Assembly (NCBI RefSeq): GCF_916700565.1
Contig: NZ_CAKAKO010000003.1
Span: 1 to 64,000, forward strand
Direction of reading: 5' to 3'
DNA from: Xenophilus sp. Marseille-Q4582
GTDB lineage: Bacteria; Pseudomonadota; Gammaproteobacteria; Burkholderiales; Burkholderiaceae_C
Length of the DNA stretch: 64,000 nucleotides
The notes under the pieces were generated by a model. It was not told where the DNA came from and did no database searches. It saw only the letters and a program-made list of their open reading frames with translations. The translations under genes and the position numbers were made by a program. This document shows, one piece after another, positions 38,300 through 49,967 of the stretch (its first letter is position 1; each line of letters begins with the position of its first letter).

Positions 38300-39157
38300 T
38301 CACGCGGCGGCGCTGCGCCGCGTCGCCATTGCCGACGCCAGCGCGCTCAGTGCGTCTCCGCAAGGCCGCGCCACCTTGAGCGCCAGCAGATCGTCGGCGC
38401 GCGTGCGGCCCAGGTTGATGGCGGCGACGGGCTTTCCCGCGGCGGCAGCGGCCTGCACGAAGCGAAAGCCCGAATAGACCATCAGCGAGGAGCCGGCCAC
38501 CAGCACGGCGTCGCTGGCCTGCACGGCCGCCAGCGCCGCCTGCACGCGTTCGCGCGGCACGCTTTCGCCGAAGAAGACCACGTCGGGCTTGAGCAGGCCG
38601 CCGCATCGCGCGCAGGCGGGTACGGCGAAACCGCCGAAGTCCGTGTGCTCCAGGTCGGCGTCGCCGTCGGGGGCCACGCTGGCGCTCAGCGCCGCCCAGG
38701 CCGGGTTGGCCGCCAGCAGGCGCTGCTGCAGTTCGGCGCGCGGCGTGCGCGCCTCGCAGGCCATGCAGCGCACGGTGTCGATGCGGCCGTGCAGGTCCAG
38801 CGTGCGGCGGCTGCCGGCCGCGTCATGCAGGCCATCGACGTTCTGGGTCAGCAGCAGCTGCACGCACCCGGCCGCTTCCAGTTGCGCCAGCGCGCGGTGG
38901 GCCGGGCCCGGGCGCGCCTGTCCCATCACGCGCCAGCCGACCATGCTGCGCGCCCAGTAGCGCCGGCGCGTGGCTTCGTCTCCCATGAAAGCCTGGTAGG
39001 TGACGGGCGGCGTGCGCTTCCAGTCGCCGTTGGCGTCGCGGTAGTCGGGAATGCCCGACTCGGTGCTCACACCCGCCCCGGTCAGCACCAACAGGCGCGG
39101 ATGGCGGCGCACGAAGGCGGTCAGGGCATCGGGGGCACTTTGCATAGCTGCCAGCAT
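38300..39157 (-). CDS. NAD-dependent protein deacetylase, sirtuin family
   Basis: This sirtuin removes acyl groups from lysines using NAD+. It shows GAGVSTESGIPDYRD (NAD loop), TQNVDGLHDAAG, the catalytic His in LDLHGRIDTVRC, zinc cysteines in CMAC and CARC, and GSSLMVYSGFRF. About 285 residues result from the ATG at 39157; ATGs at 39190 and 39145 are alternatives and none has a strong ribosome site. It is convergent with the cytosine deaminase gene, with no gap. Confidence 0.9.
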   Translation of the reverse strand: MLAAMQSAPDALTAFVRRHPRLLVLTGAGVSTESGIPDYRDANGDWKRTPPVTYQAFMGDEATRRRYWARSMVGWRVMGQARPGPAHRALAQLEAAGCVQLLLTQNVDGLHDAAGSRRTLDLHGRIDTVRCMACEARTPRAELQQRLLAANPAWAALSASVAPDGDADLEHTDFGGFAVPACARCGGLLKPDVVFFGESVPRERVQAALAAVQASDAVLVAGSSLMVYSGFRFVQAAAAAGKPVAAINLGRTRADDLLALKVARPCGDALSALASAMATRRSAAA

Positions 39158-39225
39158 AGGGGATGCGCCAGCGAGACGCCGGATGAGCACCTACGGCTTA
39201 ATTGACACATGTAGTAACTCCAGAA

Positions 39226-39299: not shown

Positions 39300-40646
39300 A
39301 TGCCCCTGCCTCCTGATTCCGTGACCGCCACGGCGACTTCCCGCGCCGAATGCCTGAGCACCCACGGCTTCGGCGTCGCGTTCGGCGACAAGGTGATCCT
39401 GGCCGAGGTCCATGCCACCCTCCGTCCCCACGCCATCACGGCACTGCTGGGCCCCACGGGGACCGGCAAGTCAACCCTGCTGCGCTCGCTGGCCGGCTTG
39501 AACGACCAGAACCCGCGCTACCGGCGCTGGGGTGAGGTGGAATACATGGGCCGGCCGCTGGCACCCGCGCATCGTCCGGCGCTGGTGCAGCAGCATGTGC
39601 AGCTGATGCAGGCGCCTACGCTGGAGGCGTTGAGCGGCGTGCTGCGCATGCAATCCTCCCATTCGCCCGTGGAACTGCGCGAATGGGCGCGGGATTGGGT
39701 CGGCGATGCCGGCTTTCCGGAACTGGCCGAGCATTTCACGACGCCCACCATCGACCTTCCACCGCTGCTGCAGCGCGTGGTCGCCATCCTGCGCGAGGCG
39801 GCCGGTGAACCCAGGCTGCTGATGATCGACGAACCCACCTTCGGCCTGCCCGACTACGAGGCCTATCTGCTGCTGCAGATGCTGGAGCACCTGCGCAACC
39901 GCTGTGCGCTGCTGCTGGTGCTGCACAACCAGAAGCAGGTGCGCCGCGTGGCCGACGACGTGCTCATGCTGGCTGGCGGGCGCGTGCAGGAGGCCGCTTC
40001 GGCGGAGCGCTTCTTCTCGGCCCCCGAATCCGAGGCGGGGCGCCAGTTCCTGGCCACCGGCAGCTGCGCCCTGCCCGCCCCCGACGCGAAGCCGCAGGAG
40101 CTGGCGGAAGACGCGCCGCTGCCCCCGCCCTTGCCCACGCTGGCGCAGCTGGCGCTGCAGTCCGCCCCCGAGTCGATGGGGCCGCGCGGCTTCATCTGGG
40201 TGGTGCCCGGCAAGCTGGCCGGAACGCCCATGCCGGGCGTGGTGCACGGCATCGACTACGACCTGGCCGCACTCAAGGCCGTCGGCGTGACATGCCTGAT
40301 CACGCTGACCGAAAACGACTTGCCGCAGGACGCCCTGGCCCGCCACGGCCTGCGCAATGTCCACCTGCCCATCCGCGACCGCGAACCGCCGACTGTCGCC
40401 CAGACCACGATGCTGCTAATGCGGATGGATACGCTGCTGCGCCGCGGCGAAGTGCTGGCCGCGCACTGCCTGGCCGGGCTGGGGCGCACCGGCACTCTCC
40501 TGGCCGCATGGCTGGTACGCGAAGGACTCACGGCACCGGAAGCCCTGCGGCGGGTGCGGCGCATCGAGCCCCAATTCGTGCAGAGCCGCGAGCAGGAGGA
40601 GTTCCTGCAGCGCTACGAAGACAACTTGCTGGCGCGGCTGAGCTGA
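39300..40646 (+). CDS. PstB-like ABC ATPase fused to a dual-specificity-type phosphatase
   Basis: The first 240 or so residues of this 448-residue protein are an ABC ATPase close to the PstB phosphate ATPase: Walker A GPTGTGKST (K57), LAGLNDQNPRYRRWGEVEY, and Walker B LLMIDEPTFGLP (E178). The LSGGQ signature is replaced by DLPPLLQRVV, so normal dimer ATP hydrolysis is doubtful. After a proline-rich linker, residues 290-448 form a tyrosine/dual-specificity phosphatase with active site HCLAGLGRTG (C390, R396). No membrane segment is seen, so it is a cytoplasmic switch-like protein rather than a transporter. A roadblock-like gene follows after 71 nt. Confidence 0.82.
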   Translation: MPLPPDSVTATATSRAECLSTHGFGVAFGDKVILAEVHATLRPHAITALLGPTGTGKSTLLRSLAGLNDQNPRYRRWGEVEYMGRPLAPAHRPALVQQHVQLMQAPTLEALSGVLRMQSSHSPVELREWARDWVGDAGFPELAEHFTTPTIDLPPLLQRVVAILREAAGEPRLLMIDEPTFGLPDYEAYLLLQMLEHLRNRCALLLVLHNQKQVRRVADDVLMLAGGRVQEAASAERFFSAPESEAGRQFLATGSCALPAPDAKPQELAEDAPLPPPLPTLAQLALQSAPESMGPRGFIWVVPGKLAGTPMPGVVHGIDYDLAALKAVGVTCLITLTENDLPQDALARHGLRNVHLPIRDREPPTVAQTTMLLMRMDTLLRRGEVLAAHCLAGLGRTGTLLAAWLVREGLTAPEALRRVRRIEPQFVQSREQEEFLQRYEDNLLARLS

Positions 40647-41122: not shown

Positions 41123-42574
41123 TCATTCAGGCTCCGGAACGACCCACTCGGCGTAGTCGTGCAGCGCGCCGAGGATTTCCTCGGCCCGCTCGTCGGCGTT
41201 TTGCGCCAGCGTGTCGATCTCGGTGAAGTAGGCATCCACGCTGAGCGCCCCGCCTTCGCCTTCCAGCAGCCGCGCCGCGCGCAGCGCCTGCCAGCGCGCC
41301 TGGCCCTCTTCGTCCAGCGTGTCCTCGAAGTTGCGCGCGCGGTAGCGGAACAGCAGCTCCTCCAGGCGTGGGTCGTCGAAGCTCGCGCGCTGCGTGGCCA
41401 GCTTCTCGCCCGACAGCTGGCGCAGGTCGTTCAGCCGCCGGCGGTCGGCGTTGCCGACGAAGCCGCCGTACAGGTCTTCGTCCACGTCCAGCGCGGGTGG
41501 CGCCTCGCGCGCATAGACCTGGGACCAGATCGCGCTCATGTCGGGCAGGCTGGCCGCGATCTCGGCATGGCGCAGCGCCTGCGACACGTCGATCCCCCAG
41601 CGCGCGGCCATCGCGTCGCTGAGCGTGCGCAGGTTGCCCACCACCATCGGCGACTTGTTGAGGTGCACGCCCTTGATGGGCAGGCGCTGCACGCCTTCGG
41701 GCAGGTCGGCGCTGCGCGTGAACAGGCGCTGGCGCAGCGTGGCCACGTCCAGCGTCGCCAGCTCGCCCGGATCGTGCGAGAGATCCCAGGCCAGCAGTTC
41801 GTTCCTGTTGGTCGGATGGCTGGCCAGCGGCCACATCAGCGCCAGGCAACCGCGCTCGGGCGCGAACATGCCCGACACATGCAGGAAGGGCCGCGCCGTC
41901 TCGCGCGTGGCGGGCAAGCCCAGTTCCTGCGCCACGCGGTCCTTCCTGTGCAGCGCGAACGCGAAGTCGAAGAGCCGGGGCTGCCGCGCGCGGATCAGCC
42001 GCGCCAGCGCGATGGTGGCGCGCACGTCGGACAGTGCATCGTGCGCCGCGTCATGCGTCAGGCCGTTGGCGCGCGTGAGGTCTTCGAGCTTGAAGCTGGG
42101 CCGGCCGTCGGCGTGCCTGGGCCATTCGATGCCTTCCGGCCGCAGCGCGTAGGTCAGGCGCACCACGTCCAGCAGGTCCCAGCGGCCGCAGTCGTTCTGC
42201 CATTCGCGCGCATAGGGGTCGATGAGGTTGCGCCAGAACAGGAAGCGCGTGACCTCGTCGTCGAAGCGCAGGGTGTTGTAGCCCACGCCGATGGTGCCGG
42301 GCTTCGAAAACGCGGCTTCGATCTGCGCCGCGAACTCGCGCTCGGGCAGGCCGCGCGCCAGGCACAGCTGCGGCGTGATGCCGGTAATGAGGCAGGACGT
42401 GGGGCTGGGCAGGAAGTCCGGCGCCGGCCGGCAGTAGAGCATCAGCGGCTCGCCGATCTCGTTGAGCTGCGCATCGGTGCGGATGGCCGCGAACTGCGCA
42501 GGCCGGTCGCGTCGCGGGTTGGCGCCGAAGGTTTCGTAGTCGTGCCAGAGGAAGGTGTGGGAGGAGGAAGTCAT
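41123..42574 (-). CDS. sbcB: exodeoxyribonuclease I
   Basis: ExoI degrades single-stranded DNA from the 3' end. The 483-residue protein has the DEDDh exonuclease motifs: FLWHDYETFGANP (residues 8-20), GYNTLRFDDEVTRFLFWRNL, and HDAAHDALSDVRATIALARL with the catalytic His/Asp, then the SH3-like and C-terminal helical domains. Its start lies 3 nt after the stop of the retron reverse transcriptase, so both are probably translated from one transcript. ExoI is a housekeeping repair enzyme, but single-strand exonuclease activity is relevant to msDNA ends. Confidence 0.93.
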   Translation of the reverse strand: MTSSSHTFLWHDYETFGANPRRDRPAQFAAIRTDAQLNEIGEPLMLYCRPAPDFLPSPTSCLITGITPQLCLARGLPEREFAAQIEAAFSKPGTIGVGYNTLRFDDEVTRFLFWRNLIDPYAREWQNDCGRWDLLDVVRLTYALRPEGIEWPRHADGRPSFKLEDLTRANGLTHDAAHDALSDVRATIALARLIRARQPRLFDFAFALHRKDRVAQELGLPATRETARPFLHVSGMFAPERGCLALMWPLASHPTNRNELLAWDLSHDPGELATLDVATLRQRLFTRSADLPEGVQRLPIKGVHLNKSPMVVGNLRTLSDAMAARWGIDVSQALRHAEIAASLPDMSAIWSQVYAREAPPALDVDEDLYGGFVGNADRRRLNDLRQLSGEKLATQRASFDDPRLEELLFRYRARNFEDTLDEEGQARWQALRAARLLEGEGGALSVDAYFTEIDTLAQNADERAEEILGALHDYAEWVVPEPE

Positions 42575-42577
42575 GAA

Positions 42578-44575
42578 CTACAGGATTCCGATGCTGCGCA
42601 GCACAGGCACCAGGACCAGGATGGCCAGCATGGCGAGGCTGAAATGGGACCAGCGCTGGTGCCGCGCCCAGTACGCGCCCAGCAGGTAGATGAGGCCGAA
42701 CACCGTGACGAAGCCGCTGCCGGACAGCGTGCCCGCGAGCCAGACCACGAAAAGCTGCAGCCAGTAGGTCTTGCGGCTGCGGGGCGACGCATCCGCCTTC
42801 CTGCCCCGGCCGGCGGCGCGGGCGTTGCGCGCCTGGCGGGCGGTGTCGACGCTGGCCGGCGCGCCCGAACGGGCCGGCGACCCGTTGCCGGAGCGCCCCG
42901 CAGGTGCGGCAACGGCCGCGCCGGCCTGCGCGGCGCGGCGGGCTTCGGCCGCGGCTTGGCGTTGGGCCGCACGCGCCTCGCGGATCTCGCCGTCGGTGCG
43001 CTGCCGCACGGGCGCCGGCGGCGATGCGGGCTGCCACCAGGGGCCCTGGGCACGCACCGGCGCCTCGCCCTGGGCCGCGCGGATGCGGAAGTCGCCCGCA
43101 GCAGTGCCGGGCGCAGCGGCTGGCGACGCGGCGGCCCGGCTCGCCAACGGCAACGCCTCGGCGGCCCGCACCAGGGCGCGGCCCTGGGCTTCGTTCACGC
43201 CTTGCACGAAATGGGCATAACCCAGCAGGCGCTCGCGGCTGGCGGGTTCGCCCTGCCAGTGCGCCGGCCCGGCGCCCGCGGTGCGCGCGCGGTGCAGCGC
43301 CGCGCGCAGCGCGCGGCGGCTCTGGCGCGACACGCCGGGCTGCGCGGCGTTGACCACGATGCCCGTCACTTCCTGCCGCGCGCCCTTGCGCATCACGCGC
43401 TCCTTGTCGGGATGCGGCTCGAAGCCTTCGTCGCGCAGGATCCAGCGCACACGGCGCAGCAGCGGGCCCACGCGCTGCGCGGCTTCGCCCGAGGCCGAGA
43501 AGCTCAGGTCGTCGGCGTAGCGCGTGTAGGCAAAGCCCAGCGTGCGCGCCAGGCCGGCCAGGCGGCGGTCCAGCCTGCGGCACAGCAGGTTGGTGAGCAT
43601 GGGGCTGGTCGGCGCGCCCTGCGGCAGCACGCGCTGGCCGGCCGCGCCGCCCACGAACCAGCGCTCGCCGTCCACCTGCAGCTCGTCGGCGCGGTTCTCG
43701 CTGCACAGCAGGGCCAGCACCGTGGCCACCGGTTCGGCATAGCCCAGGTGCGTGAACACGCCCTTGATGCGGCCGAAGCCGATGCTCGGGAAGAAGTCCT
43801 TCACGTCGAGGTTGACGACCACCTCCTGCCCGCAATGCGGCTGCGCATTGCCGACGACGGAGCGGCCCGGCAGGAAGCCGTGCGCCGCGTCGTGCGCGGG
43901 CACCTTGGCCAGGATGTTGTCGAGCACCCAGTACTGCGCGCGCTTGAGGCGCGGCATGGGCGCGGAAATCAGCCGCTCGCCGCCGCTCTTCTTGGGCAGC
44001 GTGAAGCGGCGGTAGTGCGTGTGGCGCCCCACCTCGCGGTGGAAGCTCAGGAAGCGCAGCTCGCCCAGCGCCACGCCCATGGCGCGGGCCAGCGCCTGCG
44101 GGCTGTCCAGGGCAGGCAGGCCATGCCGGGCCAGCCGCTCGGAGCGTCCGGCACGCAACGGCACGTGGGCCGCGGGCCGGTCAGCCGGGCGCTCCAGGCC
44201 GGCCGACACGCCCGCGCCCAGGTAGCCGATGCGCTGCTGGCGCTGCGCATGCCACTGCTGCGCGCGTTCGTACTGGCGCTGGGCGCGCTCGCGGGCCCGG
44301 CTGTCGCGCTGGGCGCGCGCGGCCGCCAGGCGCTCCTGGCGCATGGCGCGCAGGGCCTTCTCGGGGTCGCCCCGGAGGTGCAGCTCGGCCTGCAACTCGC
44401 CCAGCTCGCGCATCAGTGCGGCTTCGCGCTCGATCAACTCGGTGGCGGGCGCCGGCCGTGCTTCGTCGCGCGGCCAGAAGCCCAGGCGCTGCATCTCGGC
44501 CAGCACCACGGCGTCCTTGCTGGACGCGCGGATGCGCTCGAGGAGTTCGGCGCGGGTGGGTGCGGGGGCGGCCAT
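42578..44575 (-). CDS. retron-type reverse transcriptase with membrane-spanning C-terminal tail
   Basis: This 665-residue protein has an RT domain at about residues 185-460. The catalytic motif is YADD at 353-356 and the first catalytic Asp is in VNLDVKDFFPSIGF. The retron hallmarks are both present: NAQPH (NAxxH, region X, 243-247) and VTG (region Y, 403-405). The first 170 residues are a charged, probably coiled-coil extension. After the RT comes an Ala/Arg/Pro-rich linker (about 475-600), then hydrophobic segments (LQLFVVWLAGTLSGSGFVTV, FGLIYLLGAYW, LAMLAILVLVPVL), so the protein is probably membrane-anchored. GGAGG precedes the start. No intron maturase domain is present. Confidence 0.92.
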   Translation of the reverse strand: MAAPAPTRAELLERIRASSKDAVVLAEMQRLGFWPRDEARPAPATELIEREAALMRELGELQAELHLRGDPEKALRAMRQERLAAARAQRDSRARERAQRQYERAQQWHAQRQQRIGYLGAGVSAGLERPADRPAAHVPLRAGRSERLARHGLPALDSPQALARAMGVALGELRFLSFHREVGRHTHYRRFTLPKKSGGERLISAPMPRLKRAQYWVLDNILAKVPAHDAAHGFLPGRSVVGNAQPHCGQEVVVNLDVKDFFPSIGFGRIKGVFTHLGYAEPVATVLALLCSENRADELQVDGERWFVGGAAGQRVLPQGAPTSPMLTNLLCRRLDRRLAGLARTLGFAYTRYADDLSFSASGEAAQRVGPLLRRVRWILRDEGFEPHPDKERVMRKGARQEVTGIVVNAAQPGVSRQSRRALRAALHRARTAGAGPAHWQGEPASRERLLGYAHFVQGVNEAQGRALVRAAEALPLASRAAASPAAAPGTAAGDFRIRAAQGEAPVRAQGPWWQPASPPAPVRQRTDGEIREARAAQRQAAAEARRAAQAGAAVAAPAGRSGNGSPARSGAPASVDTARQARNARAAGRGRKADASPRSRKTYWLQLFVVWLAGTLSGSGFVTVFGLIYLLGAYWARHQRWSHFSLAMLAILVLVPVLRSIGIL

Positions 44576-44657
44576 TCAGTGCGCCTCCTGCGGTCGGGCC
44601 GGTGCCGCGGCGGCCCTGGTCGTGTCCATCGCAGAACGCGCGGCCGATGAAAAAGGT

Positions 44658-44884
44658 GATGCAGCGCGCTTCTCGTCGAAGAGCCCGCAGGGCCCTCGGG
44701 ACGGGGGCTGTTCACTCGACGCGGCCCCGCCACCCATGCGCGCATTCGCTTGCAGCAAGCCACTCCGGAATGGCGCATGGGTGGCAGGGGCCGCACAGTG
44801 AAAACGGCACCCGTGTCGCATGGAACGGCAGTTCACAAGGGCGGCGAAACACCACCCGGATGGCAAGAGCCTGCGCGCTGCATC
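44658..44884 (-). ncRNA. retron msr-msd non-coding RNA
   Basis: Read on the minus strand, a1 (GATGCAGCGCGC, 44884-44873) and a2 (GCGCGCTGCATC, 44669-44658) are perfect 12-nt complements. After a1 comes AGGC (possible branching G at 44871). An msr hairpin at 44857-44839 follows, a 6-bp stem (one G-U) around the loop UGUUUCG, very like the Ec86 msr loop. The msd is a very long hairpin (44802-44711): a stem of TTCACT, GCGGCCCC, GCCACCCATGCGC and CATTC with small bulges, capped by GCTTG-CTG-CAAGC. TACACT at 44897-44892 could be a -10 whose start site falls on the first base of a1. It fills the gap between the SWIM and RT genes. Confidence 0.85.
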
Positions 44885-44916
44885 GCGGCGCAGTGTAGTG
44901 CAGCGCGATGACCCGC

Positions 44917-46635
44917 TCATCGTGCATCCTCCTCGGCCACGGCCGCCGGCGCCGGGGCGGCTTCGCGCCGCAGCGCATCGATCTTGGGCTGCGCCACCAG
45001 CCGCAGGGCCAGCATGTGGCTGCACGGCCCGCGGCGCAGCCCGTGCTGCTGGAAATGCGAGCAGCTGCACTGCGCATCGGTCATGCGCTCGTCGGCGTCG
45101 AGCTCCAGCACGGGCCGCTCGGTCCGGCGGCCCTGCTTCACCTCGCCGCGCACGCGCAGGTGGCCTTCGGCCTGGTCGATGCCCTGCAAGCGCACGCCGC
45201 CGGCCAGCACCAGCTGCAGGCCGGCGTTCTCTTCCTCGCTCGCGGCCTGCAGCTGGCGCAGATCCAGCGGCTCGCGCATCAGCTCGCGCCAGGCGAAGCG
45301 GCCGGCGGCGATGTCGTACACGGCGCGGCCGGCCTGCGTCCACAGCGCGAGGGCCGCGCTCACGTCCGCGCGCGGCAGGCCGGTGCGCGCGGCGATCTGC
45401 GCGGGCGTGGCCTGCCAGTGCTGCTGCAGGTCCTGCGCCACGGCCAGCTTGGCGCTCTCGTCGATGGCATGGCGCGGGGCCAGCAGATGAAAGCGCGCGG
45501 CGGCCGACCAGTCGTTGGCCGACCAGCCCGACAGGCCCAGCGTCACCGTCACCTCGCCCATTTCCACCGCCCAGAAGCTGGGCAGGCCCGTGCCCAGCAG
45601 GTGCACGCGCACGCGCGTGGCCAGGGCGATCAGACGCTCGAGCAGCAACAGGCGGCGCCGGCCCCAGAGGCGGATGGTCTGCGGCGCCTTCAGGGCCTCG
45701 CCCACCAGCTGGCTGCGGCGCGTGGGCAGTTCGAGATTCCAGGGCTCGAAGACCAGCTTCGGTGCCGCCTCTGGCGCGAGTTCCACGCGGATGGAGCGCG
45801 GGCCGCCGCGCTCGCGATGCTGGCGCAGGGTGGCGCACAGGCTGTGCAGGTCCATCGGATGCAGCTCCAGCACCGTGGCCGGCAGCGCCATGGCGCTGGA
45901 CACCTGCAGGAAGCCGCGCACCCAGCTGTCGGGCAGATCGATCTTCTCTTCGTGCAGCGCCGGGTCGCTGCCCAGCTGCACGCCGAAGCCGCCCGGGTCC
46001 ACCGTGAGCCGTGTCTCGCGGTAGCCGCGGATCTTCTGGAACTCCTCGTAGAGGCTGGCCGAGTAGTCGATGTTGGTCGTGCCGCAGGCCATCTCGCCCG
46101 TGCGCTCGAACACGTTGTGCGACACGCTCACGGCGCAGTAGCTCGATTCGTCCTGGCTGAAGGCCTCGAAGAGCAGCCGGTCCGGGTGCACGGTGATGAC
46201 CGGGTCGAGCACATACCAAGCGTCGCGGTGGGCCTGGTAGAGCCAGTCGAAGTACTTGCGTTGCGCCCGGTAGAAGGGTTGCAGCAGGGCGGACTTCTTC
46301 TCGCGCAGCACGCCCAGTTCGGTGCGCAGGGCGGCCGCCCGCTCCTTCAGCTCGCCGGCGCGCGCCATGAACTGCGCAAGCAAGCTCTGTTCGTTCGCCT
46401 CCAGCCACTGGCGGTAGGCGCTCTTGTCGCGGCCGCGCGCGCGCATGTCACTCACGACCACCGAATGCAGGGCCGACAGCGCTTCGCGGAACTGCAGGTG
46501 GGCCAGCCCGTCGCGGCGCAAGGTGGCGTCGAAATGGGTGAGCGGGCGCAGCAAGTCGGGCGCGAAGCGGAAGGACTGCGCCGTGGCCGATGCGTCGACC
46601 GCGGTGCTGCCGAAGTACTGGTAGCGAAATTGCAT
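44917..46635 (-). CDS. SWIM zinc-finger protein of the retron cassette
   Basis: This 572-residue protein has a C-terminal SWIM zinc finger, CxC-x12-CxH: C523, C525, C538 and H540 in QCSCSHFQQHG and RGPCSHMLAL. Before it a segment around TPAQIAARTGLPRADVSAAL, WTQAGRAVYDIAAGRFAW looks like a winged helix. The N-terminal 300 residues have no recognised domain. SWIM domains bind DNA or proteins. A winged-helix SWIM protein together with an ARM/HEAT protein and an RT is the composition reported for type XIII retrons. The start MQFRYQYFG lies 20 nt after the HEAT gene stop; the longer open frame upstream is discarded because it overlaps that gene. Confidence 0.85.
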   Translation of the reverse strand: MQFRYQYFGSTAVDASATAQSFRFAPDLLRPLTHFDATLRRDGLAHLQFREALSALHSVVVSDMRARGRDKSAYRQWLEANEQSLLAQFMARAGELKERAAALRTELGVLREKKSALLQPFYRAQRKYFDWLYQAHRDAWYVLDPVITVHPDRLLFEAFSQDESSYCAVSVSHNVFERTGEMACGTTNIDYSASLYEEFQKIRGYRETRLTVDPGGFGVQLGSDPALHEEKIDLPDSWVRGFLQVSSAMALPATVLELHPMDLHSLCATLRQHRERGGPRSIRVELAPEAAPKLVFEPWNLELPTRRSQLVGEALKAPQTIRLWGRRRLLLLERLIALATRVRVHLLGTGLPSFWAVEMGEVTVTLGLSGWSANDWSAAARFHLLAPRHAIDESAKLAVAQDLQQHWQATPAQIAARTGLPRADVSAALALWTQAGRAVYDIAAGRFAWRELMREPLDLRQLQAASEEENAGLQLVLAGGVRLQGIDQAEGHLRVRGEVKQGRRTERPVLELDADERMTDAQCSCSHFQQHGLRRGPCSHMLALRLVAQPKIDALRREAAPAPAAVAEEDAR

Positions 46636-46655
46636 GGATCGGCGGTCTTTCGCGC

Positions 46656-49600
46656 TCAGGCTTCGGTCGGGCACGCGGGCGCGGCACCACGTGCTTCGGG
46701 CGGCACCCAGCGCATGAACGGCAGATTCAGTTGAGGGTGGCGCACCGCGATGTCGCGCAGCCCCGCGATGTACTGCGGCTGGTCGGTGCGGCTCGCGCCC
46801 ACCACCTGGCGCGCGAAGATGGCGGCCACCACCTCGGCGCAGGCGGGCCCGGTGATCTGCCGGCGCAGGAACTGCACGATGCGCGACTTGGCGGCGCGCG
46901 CACGGTGCACCTGGCTCAGCACCATGAGGAAGTACGGCTGCAGCGCGCGCAGGCGCCCGGCCCGCGCTTCGTCGACTTCGTCGGGCAGTTGCAGCAGCCA
47001 CTGCGTGACAAAGAGCTGCACCGAAGGGCCCGGGTGCTGGGCCAGCCGCGTCAGGCACAGCATCGCCTCGGGCGCGTCCATGCGGCCCATCAGGCGCGTG
47101 CGCCCCTGCGCCTGCACCCAGGGTTGCGGGTGGTCCACCCAGGCGATCAGCAGCTCGGGCGTGAGCGCCGCTTCGGGCAGGCGCTCGCCGAAGAGCCGGC
47201 GCACCCAGGGCTGCACGTCCTCGAACACGCTGTCGGCCGCGGGCAGCAGCTCGGCCGCCTCGTCGGGCGTGGCCTGCACGGGGTGGCCCAGGCGCGCGTC
47301 CAGGCCGCGTTGCGCGCGCTGGCGCACCGATGCATCCGCATGGCCGATCAAGCGCGCCCACTGGCGCAGGCTGTAGTCGCCGTCATGCAGCGAGTGCAGC
47401 GCCCAGGCGCCGTAGCGCTGGGCGCCCGTGGCACGCGCCTGCAATGCGCGCCAGCAGCCATCGGCATCGCTCGCGGGGGCCACCGGGGCCAGCGGACCGG
47501 TGAGCCAGCGCAGCAGGTCGTCGTGCACGCCCTCGCCCGCCTCGGCGCGGAACAGGCCGGCATGCAGGTGGGCCGCCAGTTCTTCGGCGGCCGGTGCGTC
47601 GACGGCCAGCCGCTCGATGGCCGGCGAAACCGCGGCGCGCACGCCGGCATCGGCATGCAGCGCGAATTCGCCGAGCAGCGCGGTCTGGCCGCGCAGCACG
47701 GCATCGGGCAGCGCGGCCAGCAGGCGCACGCCGCAGGCACAGCGGCGCGCATCGGCCGACGCCAGCAGCGTGCGCAGGGTGCCCGGCGGCAGCGTGGCCA
47801 GGCCCTGCGGATGGCGCAGCAGCCAGCCGCAGGCCAGCTCGACCAGGGGCACCGCCGGGTGCTGCAGCAACGCGTGCAGCGGCGCCTCGGGCACGCTGGC
47901 GGCCTGCGGCGCCCAGGGGCCGCCGATGAGCGCCTGCAGCTGGCGCACGATCTCGGGCAGCGCCGGCGTGTTCTCATCCAGCAGCGGCAAGGCGTGTTGC
48001 AGCTCGCCCAGCAAGGCGGGCACGTCGGCCTGCAGCGCCAGCCCCTGGCCGTGCATGCGCACCGCCGACTGGGGGGACAGCAGCATGGCGGCCACCAGCG
48101 CTGGATGGCGTGAAGCTTCGGGGCCGCGCCCCACCAGGGTGTCTGACAGCAACCCAGCCGCGCCCGCGTCGCGGCTGGCCGCCAGCGCGATCAGCCAGGG
48201 CAGCTGGGCCTCCAGCGTGTGCAGCCCGGCCAGCACTTCGCGCACTGCCGCCACGGCGACGGCGGCGGTCTGCGCATAGGGGCTGGCCAGCAGCGCGCGC
48301 AAGGTGGGCAACGGCGTGCGGGCCAGGAAAGGCAGGTGGTCGCGCAAGGCGCGCGCCATCACCCATTGCACGAGCGTGGAGCGGCTGCGCAGGGCCAGTT
48401 CGAGCAGCGCCTCGGGGTGCGCGTCCCACAGGGCGGGCTCGCCGTCCACGCGTTCAGGCGGCGGCTGGCTCAGGTCCAGCGGCGCGTCGGTCCACCACGC
48501 GCCGGTGCGCTGGCTGCTGCGCCGCAGGTCGGGAAAGCGCGCCAGCAAAAGGCGCGGCACCAGCAGCCAGTGCGCGGCGCCGTCCAGGTGGCGCATGCGG
48601 CGCTGGTAGCGGCCGTCCACGTGGTTCCAGTGCTCGCGCGAGCGGCGCTCGCCATGCACGGTGTCGTCCAGCTGCAGCAGCAGCGCCACGGCCAGCTTCG
48701 GTGCGTCGCTGTGGCCGATCTGCGCCAGCCGGCGCAGCAGGCGCAGCCCGCGCTGGCGCAGGTAGTTGCGCGTGGGGGGCGCGTAGGCGCTGATCAGGCC
48801 TTTGCCGCCGCGGATGTCCACCGCACGCGTGCGCAGTTCGCCGGTGCGCGGGTCGCGCCAGGCGCGGCGGTCGCGCGCATCGGGCCGCGTGGCTTCGAAG
48901 CGCGCATGCAGCAGAGCCAGGGTGTCGAGGTCGCGCCGCAGCTCGGCCGTCTTGTGGATGGCGCGCACGGCGCCGAACACGCCGGCCTCGAAACGCAGAT
49001 GCCGCAGGCTGGCCCGCACGGCGTGCAGCGCGGCGCCGTCGACCAGTGCCAGGTCGTAGCCCTCGAGCAGCCATTGCGACAGCGCGTCCCGCGCCGGGCC
49101 GTCGAGCGAAGGCTGCGCTGCGTCATCGGCGTCGGCGTCTGCATCGGCGCAGGCCGGCTGCGTGCTGGCGGATGCGCCGGCCCTGCGCAGCATCTCCGCC
49201 TCTTGCGCGTGCCAGCGCGCGCCCAGGCCACCCAGGCGCTCGGCGCGCGCAGGATCGTCGGCGCCCAGCAGCAGCCAGGCCTGGTCGGCGATGCGGCGCG
49301 TGGCGGCCGAGCGCCCGCGCTGTGCAAGCGCAGCCATGGCCTGCCGCGCGCCAGGGTCGCCCAGCCGCGCGATGGCGGCGGCCAGGCAGTAGTCGAGCAG
49401 GTCTTCCCCGCTCTCGATCAGCGACACGAGGCGCGGCACCAGGGCGCGCAGCGCCTGCTGGTCGGCGCTGGCGGCCCGCGCGGGATCGGCACGCTCGGCC
49501 ACGCGCCAGGTGCTGCGGGCCTGGCGGGCGGGCGGCAGCAGCTTCCAGCGCGAAGCCTGGAAGCGCGCCACCAGCGACGCGACCGCCGGCGATGGCGCGG

Positions 49601-49967
49601 GCGGTGCGAAGGCCATGGCGGCCAGGGGCGCAGGGGCCGCGTCGGGCACAGGCGCTGGCGCAGCGATCATCGCCATTCCCAGCTCGTCGAAGCCCGCCTG
49701 CTCGCGCAGCAGGTCGCCGGCGGCCAGACGCCGCTGCAGGTAGTCCAGGGCGCGCGCCCGCGCCACGGCCCGCGTGGCCGGCATCGCGGTGAGCGTGCTC
49801 TCGGACTCCGCCCGCAGCACGCCCTGGTCGAACAGCTGGTCGCGGCGCGTGACGACGTGGCGCGCGGCCTCGTCGCCGCCCGGCAGGTCCAGGGCCACCA
49901 GTTCGATCGTGCACAGGCGCTCCTGCGCCCGGCCCTGCACCAGCACGGCCCAGGCCAGCTTCTTCAT
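46656..49967 (-). CDS. large HEAT/ARM-repeat protein of the retron cassette
   Basis: This 1103-residue cytoplasmic protein consists largely of alpha-helical repeats, for example SRSTLVQWVMARALRDHLPF, YAQTAAVAVAAVREVLAG, HADAGVRAAVSPAIERLAVD and HADASVRQRAQRGLDARLGH, the HEAT/ARM pattern. The first 90 residues (MKKLAWAVLVQGRAQERLCT) may be a diverged WGR-like domain; that is a guess. No nuclease or NTPase motif is visible. It is the first gene of the cassette, 20 nt before the SWIM gene, and probably the sensor or effector of the retron. Confidence 0.82.
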   Translation of the reverse strand: MKKLAWAVLVQGRAQERLCTIELVALDLPGGDEAARHVVTRRDQLFDQGVLRAESESTLTAMPATRAVARARALDYLQRRLAAGDLLREQAGFDELGMAMIAAPAPVPDAAPAPLAAMAFAPPAPSPAVASLVARFQASRWKLLPPARQARSTWRVAERADPARAASADQQALRALVPRLVSLIESGEDLLDYCLAAAIARLGDPGARQAMAALAQRGRSAATRRIADQAWLLLGADDPARAERLGGLGARWHAQEAEMLRRAGASASTQPACADADADADDAAQPSLDGPARDALSQWLLEGYDLALVDGAALHAVRASLRHLRFEAGVFGAVRAIHKTAELRRDLDTLALLHARFEATRPDARDRRAWRDPRTGELRTRAVDIRGGKGLISAYAPPTRNYLRQRGLRLLRRLAQIGHSDAPKLAVALLLQLDDTVHGERRSREHWNHVDGRYQRRMRHLDGAAHWLLVPRLLLARFPDLRRSSQRTGAWWTDAPLDLSQPPPERVDGEPALWDAHPEALLELALRSRSTLVQWVMARALRDHLPFLARTPLPTLRALLASPYAQTAAVAVAAVREVLAGLHTLEAQLPWLIALAASRDAGAAGLLSDTLVGRGPEASRHPALVAAMLLSPQSAVRMHGQGLALQADVPALLGELQHALPLLDENTPALPEIVRQLQALIGGPWAPQAASVPEAPLHALLQHPAVPLVELACGWLLRHPQGLATLPPGTLRTLLASADARRCACGVRLLAALPDAVLRGQTALLGEFALHADAGVRAAVSPAIERLAVDAPAAEELAAHLHAGLFRAEAGEGVHDDLLRWLTGPLAPVAPASDADGCWRALQARATGAQRYGAWALHSLHDGDYSLRQWARLIGHADASVRQRAQRGLDARLGHPVQATPDEAAELLPAADSVFEDVQPWVRRLFGERLPEAALTPELLIAWVDHPQPWVQAQGRTRLMGRMDAPEAMLCLTRLAQHPGPSVQLFVTQWLLQLPDEVDEARAGRLRALQPYFLMVLSQVHRARAAKSRIVQFLRRQITGPACAEVVAAIFARQVVGASRTDQPQYIAGLRDIAVRHPQLNLPFMRWVPPEARGAAPACPTEA

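Follow-up and report, generated by a model that had tools for sequence, protein, structure and literature searches.

The described retrons with which the locus studied here is compared are Ec86 (Eco1, type II-A), whose RNA follows the msr-msd plan with a1 and a2 arms and whose effector is nucleoside deoxyribosyltransferase-like, and Ec48 (Eco6, type IV), which has a separate two-helix membrane effector. In the studied retrons, according to three papers (PMC13405049, PMC12548924, PMC12887533), the reverse transcriptase (RT) and its multicopy single-stranded DNA (msDNA) restrain a partner until infection, and PMC13405049 describes mechanistic understanding as missing for most retron types. We analyzed a window of 64,000 nucleotides (nt) from Xenophilus sp. 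Marseille-Q4582 (contig NZ_CAKAKO010000003.1, positions 1 to 64,000 of the forward strand) and found at 41123-49967 a locus that is, judged by its sequence, almost certainly a complete type XIII retron. It is an ordinary, well-supported member of a catalogued retron type, with an RNA newly modelled here. Among the papers listed by a search of the open literature, which did not include the type-defining paper, none was on type XIII retrons, on a membrane-tailed retron RT or on a clamp-like retron partner; this agrees with an earlier note on the same DNA, according to which there is little or no experimental work on the type, and features of the locus may already be described in the type-defining paper. 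The kind of retron is itself known, and interest centers on a predicted clamp-like partner and a membrane-like tail on the RT; as a complete type XIII example with a clean RNA, the locus makes a little-studied retron type testable.

Gene content and type assignment

Four genes lie on the minus strand of 41123-49967, in the order WGR/HEAT protein, SWIM protein, RT and exonuclease I. The earlier note had given this arrangement and the gaps of 20 nt (WGR/HEAT to SWIM) and 3 nt (RT to exonuclease I) correctly, and erred on the SWIM-RT gap, which it put at 281 nt and which measured 341 nt (44576-44916). The genes are as follows.

46656..49967, minus strand: gene 1, WGR and HEAT-repeat protein of 1103 residues; PADLOC profiles WGR_XIII (735.7 bits, residues 11-1090) and HEAT-ARM_XIII (37.1 bits)
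44917..46635, minus strand: gene 2, SWIM zinc-finger protein of 572 residues; PADLOC profile SWIM_XIII (695.1 bits, residues 1-549)
42578..44575, minus strand: retron RT of 665 residues; PADLOC profile RT_XIII (562.8 bits, residues 4-515), the next PADLOC profile scoring 334.4
41123..42574, minus strand: exonuclease I of 483 residues; of the ordinary exodeoxyribonuclease I kind (666.7 bits, where the cut-off is 260)

The assignment to retron type XIII, made earlier by eye, was upheld when PADLOC was run with the models of PADLOC-DB 2.0.0 (RT_XIII, SWIM_XIII, WGR_XIII and HEAT-ARM_XIII): all three proteins matched their type XIII profiles near full length with strong scores. The locus differs from the PADLOC type in that the RT_XIII match ends at residue 515 of 665, which leaves the membrane-like tail of the RT outside the profile, and in that its RNA matches no Rfam family. 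It thus has an RT of the type XIII clade, a SWIM partner, a WGR/HEAT partner, an msr-msd RNA beside the RT and genes that occur together elsewhere. The composition proposed in the earlier note stands for the HEAT/ARM protein (as WGR plus HEAT), the SWIM protein, the RNA and the RT; its addition of exonuclease I does not, since that gene adjoins the retron in only one of 49 loci.

Among solved chains in the PDB, the one nearest to the RT was the retron Ec86 RT (142.1 bits, E 2.3e-40, residues 147-430 against Ec86 11-270). The NAxxH, YADD and VTG motifs noticed earlier were all recovered (NAQPH at residue 243, YADD at 353 and VTG at 403), and clustering with non-retron RTs, which would have spoken against a retron, was checked and the RT instead fell with retron RTs. 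The locus resembles Ec86 in this RT alignment and in the msr-msd plan with its a1 and a2 arms, whereas Ec86 has other partner proteins and the long N- and C-terminal extensions belong to the type XIII RT (about 146 N-terminal and about 185 C-terminal residues outside the core, by our own split).

A scan of genome contigs for the SWIM protein yielded 49 loci, distributed over Pseudomonadota, Myxococcota, Bacteroidota, Cyanobacteriota and Acidobacteriota. A lack of co-occurrence of the three genes would likewise have counted against the assignment; instead they stand together in 45 of the 49 loci (Pseudomonadota, Myxococcota, Bacteroidota and Cyanobacteriota). The four exceptions are L004 and L044, where the contig ends or begins inside the cassette, the acidobacterial L013, which has the SWIM gene, the RNA and the RT and no WGR gene in 8 kb, and L025, which has no RT. 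The pairwise identities of the RT core and the SWIM protein correlate (r = 0.918 over 52 rows). The SWIM gene was found in 12 of 299 genomes of the family and in 4 of 398 genomes of a phylum sample, the window's own genome included in both counts, and not in the three other same-genus genomes listed; such patchy occurrence fits defence genes, as expected. The cassette was found in no viral contig and no phage record, and one plasmid record, a Methylobacterium replicon, carries it. As separate observations, no RT accompanies the SWIM and WGR genes in the stretches examined of L025, which keeps the RNA, and of L076 (genome G263, from the family survey; 9.8 kb), whose RNA matches are no better than chance.

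The retron RNA

The gap between the SWIM gene and the RT gene holds a structured RNA with the following parts.

44654..44887, minus strand: retron RNA core (msr-msd), 234 nt; covariation, and 250.8 bits with a covariance model in whose building the window's sequence was used
44873..44884, minus strand: a1 arm, 12 base pairs with a2; helix 1, 7 of 12 pairs changed on both sides
44658..44669, minus strand: a2 arm, pairing with a1 (helix 1)
44839..44857, minus strand: msr hairpin with loop region GTGTTTCGCC; helix 3, 100% (18 sequences) and 99.3% (35 matches) of cells paired
44701..44814, minus strand: long hairpin, presumed msd template; helices 5-7, with 20 of 27 pairs of helix 6 changed on both sides
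44892..44897, minus strand: -10-like hexamer TACACT, candidate RNA promoter; of 25 Burkholderiales sequences, 23 have a TAnACT that begins 8-19 nt before the core

In 18 Burkholderiales RNAs, 99.0% of the cells of 76 predicted pairs were kept, with 34 pairs and 158 cells doubly changed, against 33.7-49.3% of cells paired and 9-25 doubly changed cells in a control in which one arm was slid by 1-3 columns, confirming the earlier impression of a structured RNA before the RT. None of 500 shuffles of these RNAs reached the percentage paired, the number of doubly changed pairs or cells, or the covariation score, and 8 of 500 reached the number of pair types. An alignment of 35 RNA matches from 32 sources (A4) had 92.3% of cells paired and 67 of the 76 pairs doubly changed, counts that lean towards the structure because A4 was fitted to the model's structure; its number of pair types was no better than in shuffles (125 of 500). 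The 18-sequence count is cleaner, but its structure comes from the same alignment. Loci L067, L069 and L074, whose gap is identical to that of another locus, and L004, which has no RT on its contig and lies outside the gap set, were left out, as were the near copy L029 from alignment A1 and L014, with a stop in the range, from alignment A3.

Of 57 other loci, 45 gave a sense-strand match to the covariance model (E 1.6e-8 or better), and 28 of the 45 had not gone into building it; the model found the RNA in four other phyla. It also matched the opposite strand of the palindrome, more weakly. The loci it missed are L028, L030, L035, L037-L043, L049 and L076; with the exception of the last two, these (ten loci) show similar motifs in the gap sequence when read by eye. 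Loci L088-L092 were discovered through the RNA model and are therefore no test of it; the RNA is also carried by the Methylobacterium plasmid and two genomes grouping with it, all three found by protein. When Rfam was searched, nothing in the window reached the cut-off of a family, seven relatives gave only ribosomal RNA, and three matches at E up to 10 were at the level of chance. The alignments made here would let others find and number the msr-msd RNAs of type XIII. The recurrence of TAnACT upstream of the core, to which L014 (TAAAAT) and L089 (TAGACT further upstream) are the two exceptions, suggests a separate promoter for the RNA.

Three Calothrix loci carry the RNA twice, after the SWIM gene and before the RT (L021, 9654-9878 and 12282-12506; L022, 9655-9879 and 10640-10864; L023, 9649-9885 and 11371-11620), with SWIM-RT gaps of 1.3-3.0 kb that hold extra open reading frames (ORFs), mostly on the opposite strand. 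The SWIM-RT gap of L049 (5909-7098, 1190 nt) holds an ORF of 232 codons and no match to the RNA model.

Partner proteins and the RT tail

Four parts of the SWIM protein and the RT are considered here.

45001..45099, minus strand: SWIM zinc finger, CxC...CxH, residues 513-545; Pfam PF04434 at 513-544, 25.4 bits against a cut-off of 19.6
45526..46203, minus strand: predicted PCNA/sliding-clamp-like part of the SWIM gene, residues about 145-370; AlphaFold2 model and Foldseek, limits read from secondary structure
42581..42790, minus strand: RT residues 596-665, a hydrophobic C-terminal tail with predicted membrane helices; Kyte-Doolittle values of 1.75 for segment 608-626 and 2.48 for segment 647-665
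43028..43039, minus strand: twin-tryptophan motif WWQP, residues 513-516, in the low-complexity linker of the RT, read from the sequence

The window's SWIM protein is 40-88% identical to those of the 49 loci in five phyla, and the mean pairwise identity of the family is 55% (52% for the RT core). Its CxC/CxH finger, recognised in the earlier note, is secure, as the ligands C523, C525, C538 and H540 are invariant in 35 aligned sequences and Pfam reports the SWIM domain; a scan of the window's copy with Pfam gave this match and a sub-threshold winged-helix match only. The most conserved part is residues 145-370. An AlphaFold2 model built from the 35 sequences had a mean predicted local distance difference test (pLDDT) of 73.5 and a predicted template modelling score of 0.71; the residues with a pLDDT below 50 included 1-29 and 214-233. 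Foldseek returned 456 matches to the model in the PDB at E up to 0.001. The best 50 of the 456 were all PCNA (E 3.0e-8 to 1.4e-6, identity 8-15%). Their template modelling score by target was 0.51-0.63 in every row except row 6, a 758-residue chain that scored 0.20. As read from the secondary structure of the model, the region contains one beta-alpha-beta-beta-beta unit at 254-304 and a second at 319-368. The middle of the SWIM protein is thus predicted to be clamp-like at the level of fold.

The predicted resemblance is one of fold only, since no sequence-profile relation to beta clamps was detected: hhalign against 13 clamps (usable proteins from 13 of 20 loci) gave a probability of 0.15% from shallow alignments with effective sequence numbers of about 2.5 and 2.3, a profile search of the PDB found no solved relative at E up to 0.01 (best E 0.042) and no clamp at E up to 1, and a PCNA family search of the window's genome found nothing, as expected of a bacterium. 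PCNA is a ring that holds DNA polymerase on DNA. The SWIM protein differs from it and other sliding clamps also in that its clamp-like part is fused to winged-helix-like and SWIM parts. If the prediction is true, such a subunit would link replication, a process that phages take over, directly with the sensing by the retron.

The window's WGR/HEAT protein itself had no Pfam match, and in the PDB it matched only designed alpha-repeat chains. In 24 aligned members of the family, Pfam found WGR in 14 and HEAT_2 in 14, with a few isolated weak matches besides, so that the helical repeats described earlier in the 1103-residue protein are matched in members of its family though not in the window copy.

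The RT ends in a hydrophobic tail with two segments that, by hydropathy, are long enough to span a membrane. A tail of this kind is present in all 27 full-length Pseudomonadota RTs (24 of 24 Burkholderiales and 3 of 3 Alphaproteobacteria-like, with a highest 19-residue window of 1.73-2.70), a number that overstates the independent cases because L091/L092 and L093/L097 are near copies, and in none of 33 other full-length type XIII RTs, whose highest window hydropathy was 0.93. The truncated RTs of L006, L011 and L044, at contig ends, are outside both counts; the Burkholderiales label of some relatives rests on their kinship with the window, and Alphaproteobacteria-like denotes one Methylobacterium record and two genomes of one genus that group with it. 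An RT tree from which the tail was excluded requires two changes of this trait. From these features of the sequence, a position of the Pseudomonadota type XIII complex at the membrane through the RT tail is somewhat favoured, and an inner-membrane tether, if true, would make this a membrane-anchored retron. Like Ec48, the locus is a retron with a membrane-like hydrophobic element, but one that is joined to the RT itself and is missing from the 33 non-Pseudomonadota RTs.

The tail could instead be the toxin itself, an RT-fused hairpin that when triggered inserts into the membrane and depolarises it, akin to the Ec48 effector. The hydropathy of all 27 Pseudomonadota tails agrees with this, and RT-effector fusions are known in other types (the RT-Toprim, RT-TIR and RT-Protease profiles of PADLOC); yet 32 of the 33 tail-less RTs keep both partner genes, the two changes on the tree speak against it as well, and a part missing from 33 of 33 other type XIII RTs cannot be the general effector, which leaves this explanation unlikely.

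A twin tryptophan precedes the tail in 22 of the 27 Pseudomonadota RTs (19 of 24 Burkholderiales and 3 of 3 Alphaproteobacteria-like, as WWS or WWI in the latter). In the Burkholderiales loci L088-L092, WW or WY occurs solely inside the hydrophobic tail in three and not at all in two. Among the 33 tail-less RTs, a WW pair (WY in L030) lies within the last six residues in 18, namely all 18 full-length RTs of Chitinophagales, Myxococcota and one acidobacterium, and the twin tryptophan is absent from the RTs of eight Flavobacteriaceae and seven cyanobacteria. Twin tryptophans recall the aromatic residues of the PCNA-interacting-peptide (PIP) box, and this likeness is the ground on which the RT tail is proposed to dock on the SWIM protein's clamp-like domain; resting on a modelled fold, such docking is put forward tentatively, as possible rather than probable.

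The C-termini of the Flavobacteriaceae RTs (L035, L037-L042 and L049) have an amphipathic basic stretch, for example ...SGFIKKVSSFFKK, with hydrophobic moments of 0.55-0.60 in the eight tails; for one of the eight, 0.26% of shuffles had a moment as high. These ends are possibly another membrane-targeting tail.

Proposed mechanism, alternatives and gene neighborhood

Setting out from the computed family membership, RNA structure, hydrophobic tail and tryptophan motif, and from the clamp-like fold of the model, we propose a scheme for how the locus might act. The RNA would be made from its own promoter, with the -10 element just past the end of the SWIM gene, and the RT would copy the long hairpin into msDNA. 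The RT and msDNA would then keep the WGR-HEAT protein and the SWIM protein, with its clamp-like, winged-helix-like and SWIM parts, inactive in a complex, in which the RT tail would grip the clamp-like domain through the twin-tryptophan motif and which in Pseudomonadota would lie at the inner membrane through the hydrophobic tail. If a phage modified or eliminated the msDNA or a host factor of DNA processing, the partners would be released and would stop the DNA metabolism of the cell, which would die or stall before phage release.

That the locus works as an anti-phage defence we infer from the retrons already studied. By that analogy it is likely to be an abortive-infection guard in the general sense, and the joint statement, that it is a type XIII retron and such a guard, carries the same good probability. 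A more specific version makes type XIII retrons clamp-based guards: the SWIM subunit would be a domesticated or look-alike clamp whose pocket is held by the PIP-box-like peptide of the RT, the RT and msDNA would keep the clamp shut or off DNA, the freed pair of clamp and WGR-HEAT protein would load on DNA ends or forks and halt replication, and the Pseudomonadota assembly would be tethered to the inner membrane by the RT tail. In this full form the proposal is speculative and on balance improbable.

Several results weigh against these proposals. Pfam recognised no catalytic domain in the window's SWIM protein or in the 24 WGR-HEAT members. The root-mean-square deviation of the Foldseek matches was 5.4-9.8 Å for 47 of the best 50 rows, the remaining three having 10.2, 11.1 and 24.9 Å, on a model with the mean pLDDT of 73.5 given above. 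Between the window and L031 the ratio of non-synonymous to synonymous substitution rates is 0.36 in the tail, above the 0.18 of the core and close to the 0.34 of the linker, so that the tail is less constrained than the core. Relatives without an RT exist (L025 and L076). Six neighboring ORFs of the window include no clear defence system and gave weak partial PADLOC matches only, and ten flanking proteins of relatives comprised two JetA, one partial helicase-type match (60 bits or less) and seven without matches.

About as unlikely as a toxic tail is a retron without an anti-phage role, one that acts in the regulation or repair of DNA, its WGR and SWIM proteins binding DNA ends. WGR domains do occur in DNA-end-binding PARPs, and the conservation of the SWIM protein across phyla, slightly above that of the RT core, is unusual for an effector in an arms race; set against this are what retrons do in general and the patchy distribution, with the gene in 12 of 299 genomes of the family.

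Exonuclease I as a fourth member, trimming msDNA for example, is highly improbable. The gene is on the same strand at a distance of 3 nt and is equally close in L031, but it was rejected as a member because it is a single-copy host gene that adjoins the retron in that one locus of 49; it is also present in three same-genus genomes examined that have no SWIM gene and different DNA upstream, and it scores as an ordinary exodeoxyribonuclease I. Membership is thus largely refuted, and a functional link may be conceivable in this lineage alone. That the RT is no retron RT, and the RNA something else such as part of a defence-associated-RT-like or group II-derived element, is barely credible: the residues beyond the core (about 146 and 185) are unlike most solved retron RTs, which have 310-381 residues (the Ec67 fusion apart), but of 18 PDB matches the first 14 comprise 12 chains that bear the name of a retron RT and two called only 'RNA-directed DNA polymerase', group II-type RTs do not exceed 32.2 bits, NAxxH, YADD and VTG are all present, and the a1 and a2 arms of an msr-msd are found in the RNA.

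As to the surroundings of the cassette, the Wadjet gene JetA stands divergently beside it in 6 of 14 Chitinophagales loci (L016, L027, L043, L046, L047 and L050; tblastn with the L027 copy), with scores of 638-644 bits at L016:2758-4251 and L027:2906-4372. This neighbor speaks for a defence role of the cassette, although all six loci belong to one RT clade. At L012:12471-14651, about 0.6 kb downstream of the RT, a single ORF has VanW and phage-integrase SAM-like matches. In the window, 38300-39190 (minus strand) encodes a Sir2-family protein (Pfam, 147.4 bits) with a weak PADLOC match, and 39300-40646 (plus strand) has matches to an ABC-transporter ATPase and a dual-specificity phosphatase in one frame, together with weak partial PADLOC matches to mad3 and mad8.

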